This document shows positions 5,770-10,286 of a stretch of 46,815 bases of DNA, one piece after another (the first letter of the stretch is position 1; the number at the start of each line of letters is the position of its first letter). The DNA is from Bacteroidaceae bacterium (GTDB lineage: Bacteria > Bacteroidota > Bacteroidia > Bacteroidales > Bacteroidaceae). The position numbers and the translations under genes are program-made. The stretch covers positions 1-46,815 of the forward strand of contig JAFZDY010000042.1 in assembly GCA_017560945.1 (NCBI GenBank). Reading direction: 5' to 3'. The notes beneath the pieces were generated by a model. That model saw only the letters and a list, made by a program, of their open reading frames with translations, was not told the origin of the DNA and did no database searches.

Positions 5770-6324
5770 ATGTTTGAAAAACTCACACTTAATGACAAAG
5801 CATTCAATGTGCAAGGCTATCCACTCCCCTCCATAGAGGGCGATTGCGAGCTGGCACAGCAATCGGGGAGCTTCAGCGACGGAGGGCAGGTTGGGGGTGG
5901 GTCTGGACGGGTTAGGGTTACTCTCCTCATCATCCACTGCTCCGCCACCCTGCCCGACCAGCGGGTGACGGTGCAGGACATCGACCGTTGGCACCGCCAG
6001 CGGGGATTCGACTGCATAGGCTATCACTTCTACATCACCGTGGATGGGACAATTTGGACAGGACGTCCGTTGTCACGGGTGGGTGCGCACTGCAAGGGGT
6101 ACAATGCCCATTCGATAGGCATCTGTTACGAAGGGGGACTGGACGAGGAAGGGAACCCGTGTGACACGCGTACACTCCTTCAAAAGGCCGCCTTAGTGGC
6201 ACTTATCAACAAACTGCGCGAGATTTATCCCACCGCCGATGTAGTGGGACACAATGACCTCGACCTGCACAAGGCTTGTCCCTGCTTCAGTGCGGTGGGG
6301 GAGTATAATGGGGACGAGAGATGA
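5770..6324 (+). CDS. N-acetylmuramoyl-L-alanine amidase, PGRP/AmpD-like
   Basis: Residues 51-180 form a type-2 amidase domain that cleaves the bond between N-acetylmuramate and L-alanine in peptidoglycan. Visible zinc-site elements are His56 in LLIIHCSAT, His161 in DVVGHNDLD and the KACPCF motif with Cys170. The DRWHRQRGF and IGYHFYI segments are typical. Bacteroidetes members of this locus usually start directly before the IIHCSAT strand. Here 50 extra residues precede it, including a Gly-rich stretch encoded by DNA resembling intergenic CCCCTCCATAGAGGG and GGGTGGGTC repeats (5826-5915). ATG at 5770 has the expected A-rich leader and is kept. No signal peptide is visible, so export would need a partner such as a holin-like peptide. 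Confidence 0.9.
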   Translation: MFEKLTLNDKAFNVQGYPLPSIEGDCELAQQSGSFSDGGQVGGGSGRVRVTLLIIHCSATLPDQRVTVQDIDRWHRQRGFDCIGYHFYITVDGTIWTGRPLSRVGAHCKGYNAHSIGICYEGGLDEEGNPCDTRTLLQKAALVALINKLREIYPTADVVGHNDLDLHKACPCFSAVGEYNGDER

Positions 6325-6329
6325 GGATT

Positions 6330-6520
6330 AAGATTTAAAATTCAAAGATCAAGGTTCAAGGGTCAAGGTTCAAGATTCAAAGTTTAAGGTTCAAGATTCA
6401 AAGATCAAGGTTCAAAGTTCAAGGTTCAAGGATCAAGGTTCAAAGTTCAAGGTTCAAGGATCAAGGTTCAAAATTATTCGAGCAAAACTCTCATCAAGCT
6501 GCGCAAGTCAAGGATCAAAG
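6330..6520. repeat. 7-base tandem repeat array with conserved core, copy A
   Basis: About 20 degenerate 7-base units (CAAGGTT, CAAAGTT, CAAGGAT) are followed by a unique core whose complement reads GACTTGCGCAGCTTGATGAG. The core recurs at 7524-7550 and 25441-25470, each time next to the same 7-base array. Copies A and B are in opposite orientation and flank rsmE. Confidence 0.75.
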
Positions 6521-6572
6521 AAGTGAATAGTTATTAGTGAATCGTCACCCCCCCCCTCTGACCTATGGATAC

Positions 6573-6637
6573 AAAAAAAGGGTCAACGCTTTGACCCAAC
6601 CTTTATTAACCTTAAATCTAATACCATGAAAAACTTG
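6573..6637 (-). ncRNA. candidate small RNA, copy 1
   Basis: On the minus strand a promoter (6641-6671) is followed by about 65 bases ending in an intrinsic terminator: GGGTCAA, loop AGCG, TTGACCC, then T7 (6573-6597). The body contains a block of 29-30 bases beginning GTTTTTCATGGTATTAG and ending TTAAGGTTAAT that is identical in the second copy at 8392-8460, while the terminator stems differ in sequence. That pattern favours a functional RNA over a plain repeat. A 14-codon ORF starting MVLDLRL lies inside. It is placed between the end of rsmE (same strand) and the convergent amidase, so it cannot be the leader of a downstream gene. Confidence 0.6.
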
Positions 6638-6640
6638 ATG

Positions 6641-6671
6641 CAAAGGTACGGCTAAAATTTGATTCTGCAAG
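6641..6671 (-). promoter_or_regulatory. promoter of small RNA copy 1
   Basis: Minus strand: CTTG (6668-6671), 19 bases, TACCTTTG (6641-6648). The -7 box is the same as in copy 2. Confidence 0.65.
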
Positions 6672-6729
6672 AGAATCGCCCAAGATTTTATGTTTTATAA
6701 CATATTTCTTGATTTAAATCAAGTGAAAC

Positions 6730-7437
6730 TCACTCGCACATATTTACCAAGTGGAGGATGTGGCAAGCGACAAGAGCGGCCGTCTCGGTACGAAGACGCG
6801 AACGACCAAGGCTGATGGGTTGGAAGCCATGCTCGATGGCAAGTTGTACCTCCTCGCGACTGAAGTCCCCCTCGGGGCCTATCATCACCAGGGCATCTTC
6901 ACCAGGCTTCACCACATTCTTCAACAGAGGTTTCTCGCCTCCCAGGTCATCGTAGCAATGGGCAATGAACTTCTGACCAGGACGCTCTTGCTTGACAAAA
7001 CGGGCAAAGTCCGTCATATCGTTCAAGATGGGTTTAGTCGGCTTAAGGGATTGCTTGACGGCCGACACCAGTATCTTGTCCACGCGCTCAGGCTTGATGA
7101 CCTTGCGCTCGGAGAAACGGCAATTCAAGAATGTAAGCTCGTCGAAGCCTATCTCGGTGGCTTTTTCGGCAAACCACTCCACCCTATCCATTATCTTGGT
7201 GGGCGCCATGGCTATGTGCAGGTGACCTGTCCATTGAGGAGCAGGTGTCTCCTTGCTAAGAATGCGGAAAAGACAACGCTTGGGAGAGACTAACGTGAGT
7301 TCGGCTTCGTAGAAACTTCCACGACCGTCGGTTATCTGTATGTGTTCACCCTCGGTCATGCGAAGTACACGAGCGCAATGACCTGCCTCTTCAGAGGGAA
7401 GTTCTTGGGTGATTTCTATTTCGGGAACGTAAAACAC
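6730..7437 (-). CDS. rsmE: 16S rRNA (uracil(1498)-N(3))-methyltransferase RsmE
   Basis: The 235-residue protein methylates N3 of U1498 in 16S rRNA using S-adenosylmethionine. An N-terminal PUA-like part (HCARVLRMTEGEHIQITDGRG) leads into a SPOUT domain with the knot motifs MIGPEGDFSREEV and ISLGRSRLRTETAALVA near the C-terminus. Length is normal. The start is GTG at 7437; an in-frame TAG lies 9 bases upstream, so no longer N-terminus is possible, and FYVPEI follows directly as in relatives. The gene stands alone between two inverted 7-base repeat arrays, with small-RNA copy 1 downstream. Confidence 0.95.
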   Translation of the reverse strand: MFYVPEIEITQELPSEEAGHCARVLRMTEGEHIQITDGRGSFYEAELTLVSPKRCLFRILSKETPAPQWTGHLHIAMAPTKIMDRVEWFAEKATEIGFDELTFLNCRFSERKVIKPERVDKILVSAVKQSLKPTKPILNDMTDFARFVKQERPGQKFIAHCYDDLGGEKPLLKNVVKPGEDALVMIGPEGDFSREEVQLAIEHGFQPISLGRSRLRTETAALVACHILHLVNMCE

Positions 7438-7503
7438 GGGAGACTAATTTTGAAATTTAAATGTGGAACCTTTGTAATAGGGCAGGCAAACCCTGCCCCT
7501 ACG

Positions 7504-7614
7504 ATTTTTGAACCTTGAATTTTGACTTGCGCAGCTTGATGAGCGATAGCGAACTAATCTTGAACTTTGATCCTTGAACCTTAAACCTTAAACCTTGAAT
7601 CTTGACCCTTAATC
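7504..7614. repeat. 7-base tandem repeat array with conserved core, copy B
   Basis: Units of TTGAACC and TTGAATC flank the core GACTTGCGCAGCTTGATGAG. It fills the gap between rsmE and the DUF151 gene, preceded by a GGGCAGG...CCTGCCC hairpin near 7480. It is inverted with respect to copy A. Confidence 0.75.
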
Positions 7615-7615
7615 C

Positions 7616-8170
7616 TCACACTCTCCTCTCACGACGTGATATTTCATCACGAAGTTGGGCGGCCAATTCGTAGTTTTCCTCTTGTATGGCGCGTGAAAGG
7701 GCCTCGCGCAACACCTCTATATCGACCGATGAGACGGGTATGGAGATGGAGCCATGACCATCCTCGAAGATGTGTTCACGAGCGAGCAGTGACTCGGATG
7801 TATAGATGGGGGCACCAAAGCGCAGGGCAAGGGCAATGGCATCGCTGGTGCGCACATCCACATGTTGTATGTTGCCATCCTGCTCAAGTTCGAGCAAGGA
7901 GTAATACACACCATCCAAAACCTTATATATGTATACCTCGCGCAGGACGACACCAAAGGATTGCAACGATTGCAAATAGACATCGGACAACAGGGGACGA
8001 GGAACCTTCACACCGCGCATCACCACCAGGATGCTTTGCGCCTCGAAAGGGCCTACCATCACAGAAAGTTTGCGGAGACCTGTCGCTTCGCTCAACATCA
8101 GGAAGAAGGGACTCTTCCCCGATGCTCCCTGGGTCACATCCAACACCTTCATCAACACTTTTTCTTCCAT
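7616..8170 (-). CDS. DUF151 bifunctional-nuclease-like protein with C-terminal UVR motif
   Basis: The 184-residue protein has a DUF151 (bifunctional nuclease) domain at residues about 5-135, with KVLDVTQG, an LPIxVGPFEAQSI-like segment (here LSVMVGPFEAQSI) and DVRTSDAIALALRFGAPIY. A UvrB/UvrC interaction motif follows at the C-terminus (LSRAIQEENYELAAQLRDEI). The domain was described as a nuclease in plants; the bacterial role is unclear. I chose ATG at 8170 rather than 8323. The family starts MEEKVLMKV, and a promoter lies at 8280-8310, which would put a start at 8323 upstream of the transcript. Confidence 0.9.
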   Translation of the reverse strand: MEEKVLMKVLDVTQGASGKSPFFLMLSEATGLRKLSVMVGPFEAQSILVVMRGVKVPRPLLSDVYLQSLQSFGVVLREVYIYKVLDGVYYSLLELEQDGNIQHVDVRTSDAIALALRFGAPIYTSESLLAREHIFEDGHGSISIPVSSVDIEVLREALSRAIQEENYELAAQLRDEISRRERRV

Positions 8171-8279
8171 ACACTCTTCTTTATTTCTTTTTTCCAAAAA
8201 TGTGGAAAAGACCTTTTCCTTCCCATACAACACACGCACAAAACGGATGTTCATACGAGGGCGGAGAGGTTTCTGTCTG

Positions 8280-8310
8280 CAAAAATAATGCAAAGGAAGA
8301 GAAGTACAAA
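8280..8310 (-). promoter_or_regulatory. promoter of the DUF151 gene
   Basis: Minus strand: TTTG (8307-8310), 19 bases, TATTTTTG (8280-8287). It lies downstream of the small-RNA terminator, so the two transcripts are separate. Confidence 0.6.
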
Positions 8311-8339
8311 GAAATAGAGGCAAAAAAAACTTTCTGCAC

Positions 8340-8367
8340 TACCTGCAAAAAGTTTCTTCCTTACCTG
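8340..8367 (-). repeat. two 22-base-spaced CAGGTA units
   Basis: Read on the minus strand, CAGGTAAGGAAGAAAC (from 8367) and CAGGTAGTGCAGAAAG (from 8345) are spaced by exactly 22 bases. The same motif with the same spacing occurs three times at 20787-20852 on the plus strand. Confidence 0.6.
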
Positions 8368-8391
8368 AAAAAATTATCTTCTCTATAGGGT

Positions 8392-8460
8392 AAAAAAAAG
8401 AAGGTTGTCTCCCGACAACCAATCTTTCATTAACCTTAAATCTAATACCATGAAAAACAC
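8392..8460 (-). ncRNA. candidate small RNA, copy 2
   Basis: This is the second copy of the element at 6573-6637, with the same 29-30-base block starting GTTTTTCATGGTATTAG and its own promoter (8465-8495). The terminator is different in sequence but equal in form: GGTTGTC, loop GGGA, GACAACC, then TTCTTTTTTTT (8392-8420). The enclosed ORF again begins MVLDLRL. It lies between the GH43 gene and the DUF151 gene, all on the minus strand; since DUF151 has its own promoter downstream of this terminator, the element appears free-standing. It may match an RNA motif already named in Bacteroidales, which I cannot check. Confidence 0.6.
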
Positions 8461-8464
8461 GGTG

Positions 8465-8495
8465 CAAAGGTAAGGCTTTTTGTTGTGTTTACAAT
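8465..8495 (-). promoter_or_regulatory. promoter of small RNA copy 2
   Basis: Minus strand: ATTG (8492-8495), 19 bases, TACCTTTG (8465-8472). Confidence 0.65.
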
Positions 8496-8573: not shown

Positions 8574-10286
8574 TTAACGACTTGTAGCGTGCAAAGCTAT
8601 GGTAGTACCTGTGAAACCTCCGGCCTCAGCAGTGGAGAGGTGATTAGCACTGACACCTACCGCAAGAGAAGTCCAGTTGTTACCCTTGTCAAGTGAATAA
8701 GCAAACTCGTAAGAGGTGCCTTCAGAGTACACAAGAAGGTCGAAGCAAACGGCATCCTGCGGAAGTTTGTTGGTTGAAATCACTCTTTCTTCGTCTCCAT
8801 TAACCTTTATCAAGGAGATGATGCGTCCCTCCTCTGATTGGCTCACCGCCATGAAGTACTGGTGAGTTTCGTCCTTGAAGAGCATGAGACCAGCCTTCTC
8901 GTTGCTATTAGCGGGATCGAAGTACATACGTGTAGAGGTTGTAAAGTTGTGGTGTTGCATACGACGGCAAACCAAGGCGGGTACTCCGCGCTCCTTCGCA
9001 CTCTTCTCAGCACACTTCAAGGTGAGGTATCCAGGTGTCTGAGTCAATGAGTAAAGGTTGGTTGCAGGGCCTCTGAGGGTCATCCATTGCATACCCAATA
9101 CAGAGTCGTTGAACTCTTCGCTCACGGTGAAGTTACCAAAGGTCACCTCTTCGCCACGCACTACACCTTCGCGACGTCCAATCATAGGAATCTCTTCGTC
9201 ACCTTGAGTGAAATAGGGGAAGCCATCTTCGCTCCACTGAACGGGCATCAAGAAGGTTTCGCGACCCAAGTTCTCGAACTTGTTGTCAATGGGTCGGCAA
9301 GCCAAGAATACGCCCCACCAGTCACCTTCGGGAGTCTGCAAAATGTCGGCGTGTCCGGCACAAGTGATAGGATTCGGACGATTGGGGTCGAGGTGGCGCT
9401 GAGTCAAGATGGGGTTCTTATCCCAAGGCACGAAAGGTCCCCAAGGTGAATCGCTACGGAAGATAACCTCTGAGTGATTCTCGCTGGTTCCTCCCTCGGC
9501 ATCCATCAAGTAGTACTTGCCATTGATCTTATACATGTGAGGTCCTTCAATCCAGATGGGCTTCTCCTCGGGGTGTACACCCTTGTTCACGAGGATCTTG
9601 CGCGGGCCTACCATCTTGTCGTTCTTCCAGTCAAACTCTTGTACACGGATGGTGCGGTGTCCATCGTATTCAGCCTTGAAGTCGGGCGCGTCGTCGTTGT
9701 TAACCACGTACGCCTTGCCATCCTCGTCGAAGAAGAAGCTGGGGTCGATACCTCCCACCTGAGGCACACGGATGGGATCGCTCCATTCACCGAACGGATC
9801 CTTTGTCTTCACATAGAAGTTGCCTGCACCTACGTTGGTGGTAATCATATAGTAGGTCTCGTTATGAGGATTGTAGCTGATGGCGGGGGCAAATATACCT
9901 CCACTCACGTGCTGGTTCTCCATGTTCACCAACTGGGAAGGACGGCTGAGTACGTGTCCCACCTGCTTCCAGTTTACAAGGTCGCGGCTATGGAAAATGG
10001 GCACACCAGGGAAATAGGTAAAGGTAGAAGTCACCAAGAAATAGTCTCCCTTGCCATTGGTACAGATGCTGGGATCGGAATACCAACCAGGAAGGATGGG
10101 TGTGTAGAAACTCTGCTCATCGGGCAACGGATTTTCTTTGTAGTAACTATCCATGCCCTCATAGTAGAAGCTATCAAACATGGCTGTACCCTGAGCAATC
10201 TCGGGTGCATCGTTGCCAGAAAAACATCCGGCGAGCACACCGCCAGTAGCAGCACATAACAAAATTTTGGTCAATACTTTGTTCAT
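8574..10286 (-). CDS. GH43 family beta-xylosidase/arabinofuranosidase-like lipoprotein
   Basis: The 570-residue protein has a lipoprotein signal (MNKVLTKILLCAATGGVLAG before Cys21), so it is probably anchored in the outer or inner membrane facing out of the cytoplasm. The five-bladed GH43 domain spans about 60-360 with the expected catalytic set: Asp71 in GWYSDPS (base), Asp181 in GGIDPSFFFDEDG (pKa modulator) and Glu247 in IEGPHMYKINGKYYL (acid). A C-terminal beta-sandwich (about 385-570) matches the DUF1349/xylosidase C2 type. Likely substrates are xylo- or arabino-oligosaccharides; the exact linkage cannot be read. There are no SusC/SusD genes nearby, so it is not in a classical utilisation locus. 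A -7 box lies at 10333-10340. Confidence 0.92.
   Translation of the reverse strand: MNKVLTKILLCAATGGVLAGCFSGNDAPEIAQGTAMFDSFYYEGMDSYYKENPLPDEQSFYTPILPGWYSDPSICTNGKGDYFLVTSTFTYFPGVPIFHSRDLVNWKQVGHVLSRPSQLVNMENQHVSGGIFAPAISYNPHNETYYMITTNVGAGNFYVKTKDPFGEWSDPIRVPQVGGIDPSFFFDEDGKAYVVNNDDAPDFKAEYDGHRTIRVQEFDWKNDKMVGPRKILVNKGVHPEEKPIWIEGPHMYKINGKYYLMDAEGGTSENHSEVIFRSDSPWGPFVPWDKNPILTQRHLDPNRPNPITCAGHADILQTPEGDWWGVFLACRPIDNKFENLGRETFLMPVQWSEDGFPYFTQGDEEIPMIGRREGVVRGEEVTFGNFTVSEEFNDSVLGMQWMTLRGPATNLYSLTQTPGYLTLKCAEKSAKERGVPALVCRRMQHHNFTTSTRMYFDPANSNEKAGLMLFKDETHQYFMAVSQSEEGRIISLIKVNGDEERVISTNKLPQDAVCFDLLVYSEGTSYEFAYSLDKGNNWTSLAVGVSANHLSTAEAGGFTGTTIALHATSR

Follow-up and report, generated by a model that had tools for sequence, protein, structure and literature searches.

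The window, a stretch of 46,815 nt from a Bacteroidaceae bacterium, carries two short elements which, on the whole of the sequence evidence, are very probably both genes of trans-acting small RNAs of the FopS family. A cmscan search assigned the two copies to RF04319 (BTncRNA_FopS, a paralogous sRNA family) with 83.5 and 69.9 bits against a cut-off of 56, and alignment to the family model placed the R1' seed at the 5' end of both (Table 1). The first-pass annotation had guessed that the element might equal a named Bacteroidales RNA motif, and the Rfam search, in which both copies exceeded the gathering score of RF04319, bore this out. The family itself was published in 2025, and the window elements are ordinary further members of it. 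FopS sRNAs were described in Bacteroides thetaiotaomicron, as FopS-01 to FopS-14 (PMC11697453). According to the available passages of that work, the 5' region R1' pairs with susC-type mRNAs at their translation starts, FopS RNAs are induced by bile salts, RbpB relieves FopS repression, and Bacteroides species possess 12–15 FopS copies (PMC11697453). FopS RNAs link the nutrient uptake of dominant gut bacteria to stress.

Both copies lie on the minus strand and are 87% identical over 60 nt, with an identical block of 29 nt (TTTTTCATGGTATTAGATTTAAGGTTAAT, minus strand), a 23-nt part of which occurs exactly twice in the window and not once in 100 shuffles. The -33 box is separated from the common -7 box TACCTTTG by 18 nt in both, and by sequence each copy has its own promoter of the canonical sigma-ABfr type. 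The earlier description of two minus-strand copies with a common -7 box and a block of about 30 bases was accurate, as was that of terminators unlike in sequence and alike in form (GGGTCAA/TTGACCC versus GGTTGTC/GACAACC, each with a T run). The predicted RNA would be about 65–70 nt long; its 5' seed hardly varies, and the stem of its intrinsic terminator is free to differ. The sole helix in the centroid fold of copy 1 is the terminator hairpin (z-score -0.71); copy 2 folds into the terminator hairpin and a helix that pairs the start of the seed with the stretch preceding the terminator (z-score -2.51). The seed reads as a complement to start regions. Its reverse complement, AAUACCAUGAAAAA, resembles a translation start, and the seed, by extension from what has been reported for B. 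thetaiotaomicron (PMC11697453), would pair with the start regions of susC-type outer-membrane transporter mRNAs and thereby block their translation. The 5' seed, predicted length, canonical promoter, terminator hairpin and occurrence in multiple copies are all common to the window copies and the FopS RNAs of B. thetaiotaomicron.

Table 1. Positions in the window of the two FopS-family copies and their associated features
Feature	Position	Strand	Basis
FopS sRNA gene, copy 1	6570..6636	-	RF04319, 69.9 bits, gathering 56, E 2.6e-8
5' seed block (R1/R1' of the literature), copy 1	6605..6633	-	same letters in copy 2
Intrinsic terminator, copy 1	6573..6597	-	GGGTCAA/TTGACCC + T7
-7 box TACCTTTG, copy 1	6641..6648	-	sequence
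-33 box TTGC, copy 1	6667..6670	-	sequence
Palindrome B ATGTTATAAAACAT, candidate operator at -70, copy 1	6690..6703	.	pattern match
Palindrome A CTTGATTTAAATCAAG, candidate operator at -89, copy 1	6708..6723	.	pattern match
FopS sRNA gene, copy 2	8391..8460	-	RF04319, 83.5 bits, E 6e-11
5' seed block, copy 2	8429..8457	-	same letters in copy 1
Intrinsic terminator, copy 2	8392..8420	-	GGTTGTC/GACAACC + T run
-7 box TACCTTTG, copy 2	8465..8472	-	sequence
-33 box TTGT, copy 2	8491..8494	-	sequence

Conservation, genomic setting and competing identities

FopS was found above the cut-off in 40 of 61 panel genomes, in a scan with stricter filters, the weak matches being those among its listed results. 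For comparison, 129 distinct elements preceded by 130 nt or more of sequence were collected, 125 of them from the 61-genome panel (38 genomes, 24 genera) and the remaining 4 from contigs related by rsmE. The elements were found via Rfam and then by a 24-nt seed pattern with at most five mismatches, identical ones being collapsed; 16 above-cut-off panel copies were left out (the 14 lowest-scoring, one of G013 and one of G055). Over columns 1–19 of the seed there is hardly any variation outside one column with A in 69 and G in 60 elements, a conservation that is partly built in because the seed pattern was used for picking the elements. All 129 elements end in a hairpin and T run, with 39 different stems, which supports the earlier interpretation of a free-standing RNA with a conserved body and swapped stems.

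The window genome is a draft of 2.35 Mb that is 82% complete, and contains seven FopS copies above the cut-off and one weak relative, compared with the 12–15 quoted for Bacteroides species in the accessible text of PMC11697453. A 21-mer of the seed is exact in six of the seven and has one mismatch in the seventh. The weak relative (L241 2971; C10:8667-8742) is sub-threshold at 35.5 bits, differs in its body, and has no palindrome match within 250 nt upstream. By rsmE, the nearest records are uncultured Bacteroidaceae of sheep, roe deer and goat gut (L054, 92% protein identity). Copy 1 has an amidase gene (5770-6324, plus) on one side and the 3' end of rsmE (6730-7437, minus) on the other; copy 2 is flanked by a GH43 gene (8574-10286, minus) and by a bifunctional-nuclease (BFN) ORF (7616-8323, minus). 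The FopS copies inspected adjoin differing genes, consistent with the earlier interpretation of a free-standing RNA. The order GH43–FopS–BFN–rsmE recurs in L054 and in L033 (genome G012). The close relatives L056 and L057 have BFN and rsmE and no FopS at the copy-2 place, for which L055 is too short to be judged. FopS is located upstream of rsmE in 5 of 20 rsmE loci scanned, at differing distances, and no copy lies behind rsmE in L054. As the copy-2 place is common to some relatives and L054 has no copy behind rsmE, copy 1 is either the younger of the two or was lost elsewhere. Inverted arrays of a 7-nt AAGGTTC/AAGATTC-like unit were also seen flanking rsmE (window 6312-6489 and 7508-7616).

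The stem GGGTCAA/TTGACCC is common to copy 1 and five paralogues (C23, C5, C7, C44 and C4). With the paralogues on C23, C5 and C7, the similarity of copy 1 extends over about 160 bp, starting at palindrome A and ending shortly beyond the terminator; with C44 and C4 it covers a shorter part. Copy 1 is thus one of a closer set of paralogues, most of which appear to have been duplicated along with their palindromes. A TetR-type gene followed by an outer-membrane efflux gene (L237 3981-5970) lies 3.9 kb from the C5 copy and is probably a chance neighbour.

Such duplication amid unrelated flanks, together with the location of two of the copies at contig ends, might indicate that the copies are remnants of mobile elements and the RNA a functionless passenger. 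We consider this very improbable, since an alignment of the seven copies of the window genome revealed neither terminal repeats nor target duplications, which tells against a mobile element with ends, and since the seed and terminator are retained as other parts drift and the location of copy 2 is common to two relatives. Even less credence can be given to the proposal of the first-pass annotation that the element encodes, or serves as leader for, a short peptide beginning MVLDLRL. Both window copies contain the frame, and ATG occurs in 60 of the 129 elements; in the other 69, however, ATA stands in its place, and the frame endings are diverse past the first residues. The A/G seed column is the G of this ATG, so that the peptide cannot be a conserved product, and the loss of ATG from 69 elements is our reason for rejecting both the peptide and the leader reading. 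Putative sORFs were likewise excluded in the published FopS work, as far as its available text goes (PMC11697453).

An identity with a GibS-type sRNA or BTnc231 instead of FopS has an equally negligible probability. Both families gave weak matches in the window (GibS 47.5 and 33.9 bits, BTnc231 42.3 bits), but these scores are below gathering (115 and 80.4, respectively) and are exceeded by FopS at each of the places concerned, for which reason this identity was rejected; moreover, with a strong terminator about 70 nt from the start, an RNA of 140 nt would be unlikely. The R1 seed region is common to GibS (RF04182) and FopS according to the published FopS work (PMC11697453), whereas the GibS promoter, in the text available to us, is the non-canonical PM2 (PMC7366714) and that of the window copies is canonical.

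Upstream palindromes as candidate operators

Two palindromes upstream of copy 1 (6690-6703 and 6708-6723) are absent from the first-pass annotation. The accessible passages on published FopS genes do not mention such palindromes, and they leave an 'unknown transcriptional regulator' open (PMC11697453), for which these palindromes are candidate sites. In the lineage of copy 1, a DNA-binding regulator would control transcription via the two palindromes, whose centres precede the start by about 60 and 80 bp, and they would offer a handle on the FopS regulator.

Palindrome A was defined as TTGATN4ATCAA and palindrome B as ATGTTN4AACAT, with distances counted from the first T of TTTTTCAT. In the stretches preceding the 129 elements (250 nt at most), exact palindrome A occurs 17 times, at -89 (15) or -88 (2) and nowhere else, and exact palindrome B 39 times, at -71 to -69 (26) or -40 to -37 (13) and nowhere else, while four permuted half-site controls gave no exact match in the same stretches. 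When one mismatch was allowed, 2 of 27 A matches and 7 of 68 B matches fell at other positions, and at least one palindrome was in place in 72 of the 125 panel elements and in 16 of the 24 genera; palindromes are missing from 57 of the 129 elements, and copy 2 has neither A nor B upstream. In a sequence-free dyad scan, counts peaked at centres -63 and -82, a few dyads being centred at about -30, and most, not all, of the peaks exceeded every re-pairing control.

Records without a role in setting the positions were also inspected, namely 8 taken from 18 matching records of a plasmid collection. A palindrome was in place in six of them, two with one mismatch (Bacteroides finegoldii 3/5, Phocaeicola massiliensis 2/2, Prevotella sp. 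oral taxon 299 1/1), and one of the eight has an extra B match at -224. Among elements on viral contigs, site B was in place in 2 of 22, with one A-like match at -127, and neither of the two elements from the phage collection had a palindrome. In the window genome, three of the four CTTGATN4ATCAAG sites are FopS promoters (backwards control 0), and of the 19 ATGTTN4AACAT sites four belong to FopS and 15 do not (backwards control 5). Seven of these 15 were viewed with wide flanks, and no common theme emerged for a regulon of non-FopS motif B sites. Palindrome B (ATGTTATAAAACAT) was also seen at L229 3023-3036, about 310–320 nt upstream of the 16S rRNA start.

Since the FopS copies are related to each other, the equal positions of their palindromes may reflect descent, and the palindromes might be a legacy of a shared ancestor to which no protein binds. 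This is unlikely in our view, because between genera the palindromes are 83–88% identical, a figure partly explained by selection of the elements, whereas the neighbouring 14-mers on either side are only 27–55% identical; the four central bases, which lie outside that selection, are 57–75% identical. In addition, a second B register at about -38 occurs in 20 of the 125 elements, from 11 genera.

As to the protein that might bind these candidate operators, palindrome A has the form of an FNR/CRP-family operator, whereas the half-site of palindrome B differs from it. The window genome has two HTH_Crp_2 matches above the cut-off, and any connection of these Crp-type proteins with palindromes A or B would be conjectural. 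Works listed by literature searches for the palindrome letters have titles on other organisms, and the listings for the regulator likewise contained nothing on it.

FopS in genomes with and without RRM_1, and a test of pairing with SusC starts

RbpB-type proteins were sought as matches to the RRM_1 domain. Unlike the B. thetaiotaomicron system, the window genome (82% complete) gave no RRM_1 match, as did 27 of the 40 FopS-bearing panel genomes, this one among them, and 15 of the 25 FopS-bearing genomes listed as at least 90% complete. Within the genus of the window, FopS is present in 15 of 15 genomes and RRM_1 in 3 of 15; both are present in the control genome, Bacteroides ihuae. Where FopS occurs without RRM_1, either another protein may serve in its place or FopS may need none, and such genomes permit a test of the RbpB requirement.

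Pairing was assessed by comparing the seed duplex with shuffled seeds at SusC start regions. In this crude test, with a crude rule for picking starts that seems to have chosen a wrong frame in one locus or more (L281), the signal was weak: z was below -2 at 13 of 25 SusC starts of FopS-bearing genomes versus 3 of 12 other genes of the same loci (p = 0.089). For the SusC genes of FopS-less genomes, z was below -2 in 2 of 8, with a median of -0.66 versus -2.12 in FopS-bearing genomes. None of the six SusC genes of the window genome reached z below -2, all being above -1.5, and pairing of FopS with the SusC mRNAs of this genome is not supported.

Copies of the seed in viral contigs

The 19-nt seed TTTTTCATRGTATTAGATT was found in 99 stretches of viral contigs, 80 of which were listed, and its reversed pattern in 11. 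Among 66 distinct elements in 85 viral loci, 14 contain TAnnTTTG within the last 19 nt and resemble host-type genes, and 52 lack it, although some of the copies so classed as promoterless have TTTG-like boxes and could have a weak promoter of their own. Thirty of the 52 box-less copies lie at most 60 nt past the stop codon of an ORF that has 60 or more codons and the same orientation, compared with 9.6% of random positions on the same viral contigs; for the reversed pattern, 6 of 11 lie behind a stop codon, five of the six in one context.

These 30 copies fall into 18 groups by upstream protein and 17 by body (L243-L266, L309-L369). As the viral elements were picked by the exact 19-mer, conservation counts solely outside it, where G at -1 and T at -2 are each found in 14 of the 18 protein groups and T at +19 in 16; counted per body, TG directly precedes the seed in 8 of 17. 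By eye, most viral bodies terminate in a hairpin, which in many is accompanied by a T run, and GTGA occurs in the hairpin region of 14 of the 17. PHROG scans of one upstream protein per group identified an endolysin, a phage lipoprotein and several families with the annotation of unknown function, the rest having no or marginal matches. When 12 viral or phage loci were scanned with cmscan, L243, L256, L267 and L276 reached the FopS cut-off, and L247, L248, L253, L255, L257, L259, L261 and L262 were below it, so that most of the promoterless copies scanned match the seed and not the whole family model. Seed matches in five Cellulophaga phages (E 0.2) were set aside as probably due to chance, the one inspected being antisense over coding sequence.

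FopS-14 of B. thetaiotaomicron is described in the available text as 3'-UTR-derived (PMC11697453), and the viral copies are alike in that a seed behind a stop codon is followed by a hairpin, but they differ in lying behind 18 groups of viral-contig proteins and in having 17 dissimilar bodies. The same text mentions a FopS sequence in one Caudovirales phage (PMC11697453), and nothing on viral FopS seeds was found among the listed matches of a literature search on phage-encoded sRNA. The viral copies suggest that phages use the FopS seed, which would raise the question of phage control of host surface transporters. A joint interpretation of our observations, tentative and with somewhat less than an even chance of being right as a whole, has four parts: Bacteroidota phages would have taken the FopS seed repeatedly, as 3'-UTR small RNAs that have no more than the first ~20 nt in common, follow directly on the stop codon of a phage gene and end in their own hairpins; these mimics would repress host SusC-type transporters or bind host FopS partners during infection; bacterial FopS genes would be run by a dedicated regulator acting on the fixed-distance palindromes; and bacterial FopS could work without RbpB. 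The candidate operators, the RRM_1-less genomes and the viral seeds behind stop codons, all of them computed, appear to go beyond the portion of PMC11697453 available to us.

Some further observations concern the context of the viral copies. Sequence resembling a tRNA 3' half precedes the seed, by eye, in L243, L262 and L311, and ARAGORN predicted no tRNA in L243 and L262. The isolated Bacteroides fragilis phage BF1-TP2 closely resembles one viral group and has a diverged seed (three differences) in the same place, behind gp7. In BF1-TP2 (L396, about 2598) and in L314, the seed–hairpin cassette has after it a sequence that by eye resembles the beginning of a tRNA-Leu, and a closely similar cassette lies behind differing genes in L314, L315, L319 and L335. 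Finally, phage BX-TP2 of B. xylanisolvens has, close to the end of its genome, a FopS match that exceeds the cut-off and possesses a -7 box.
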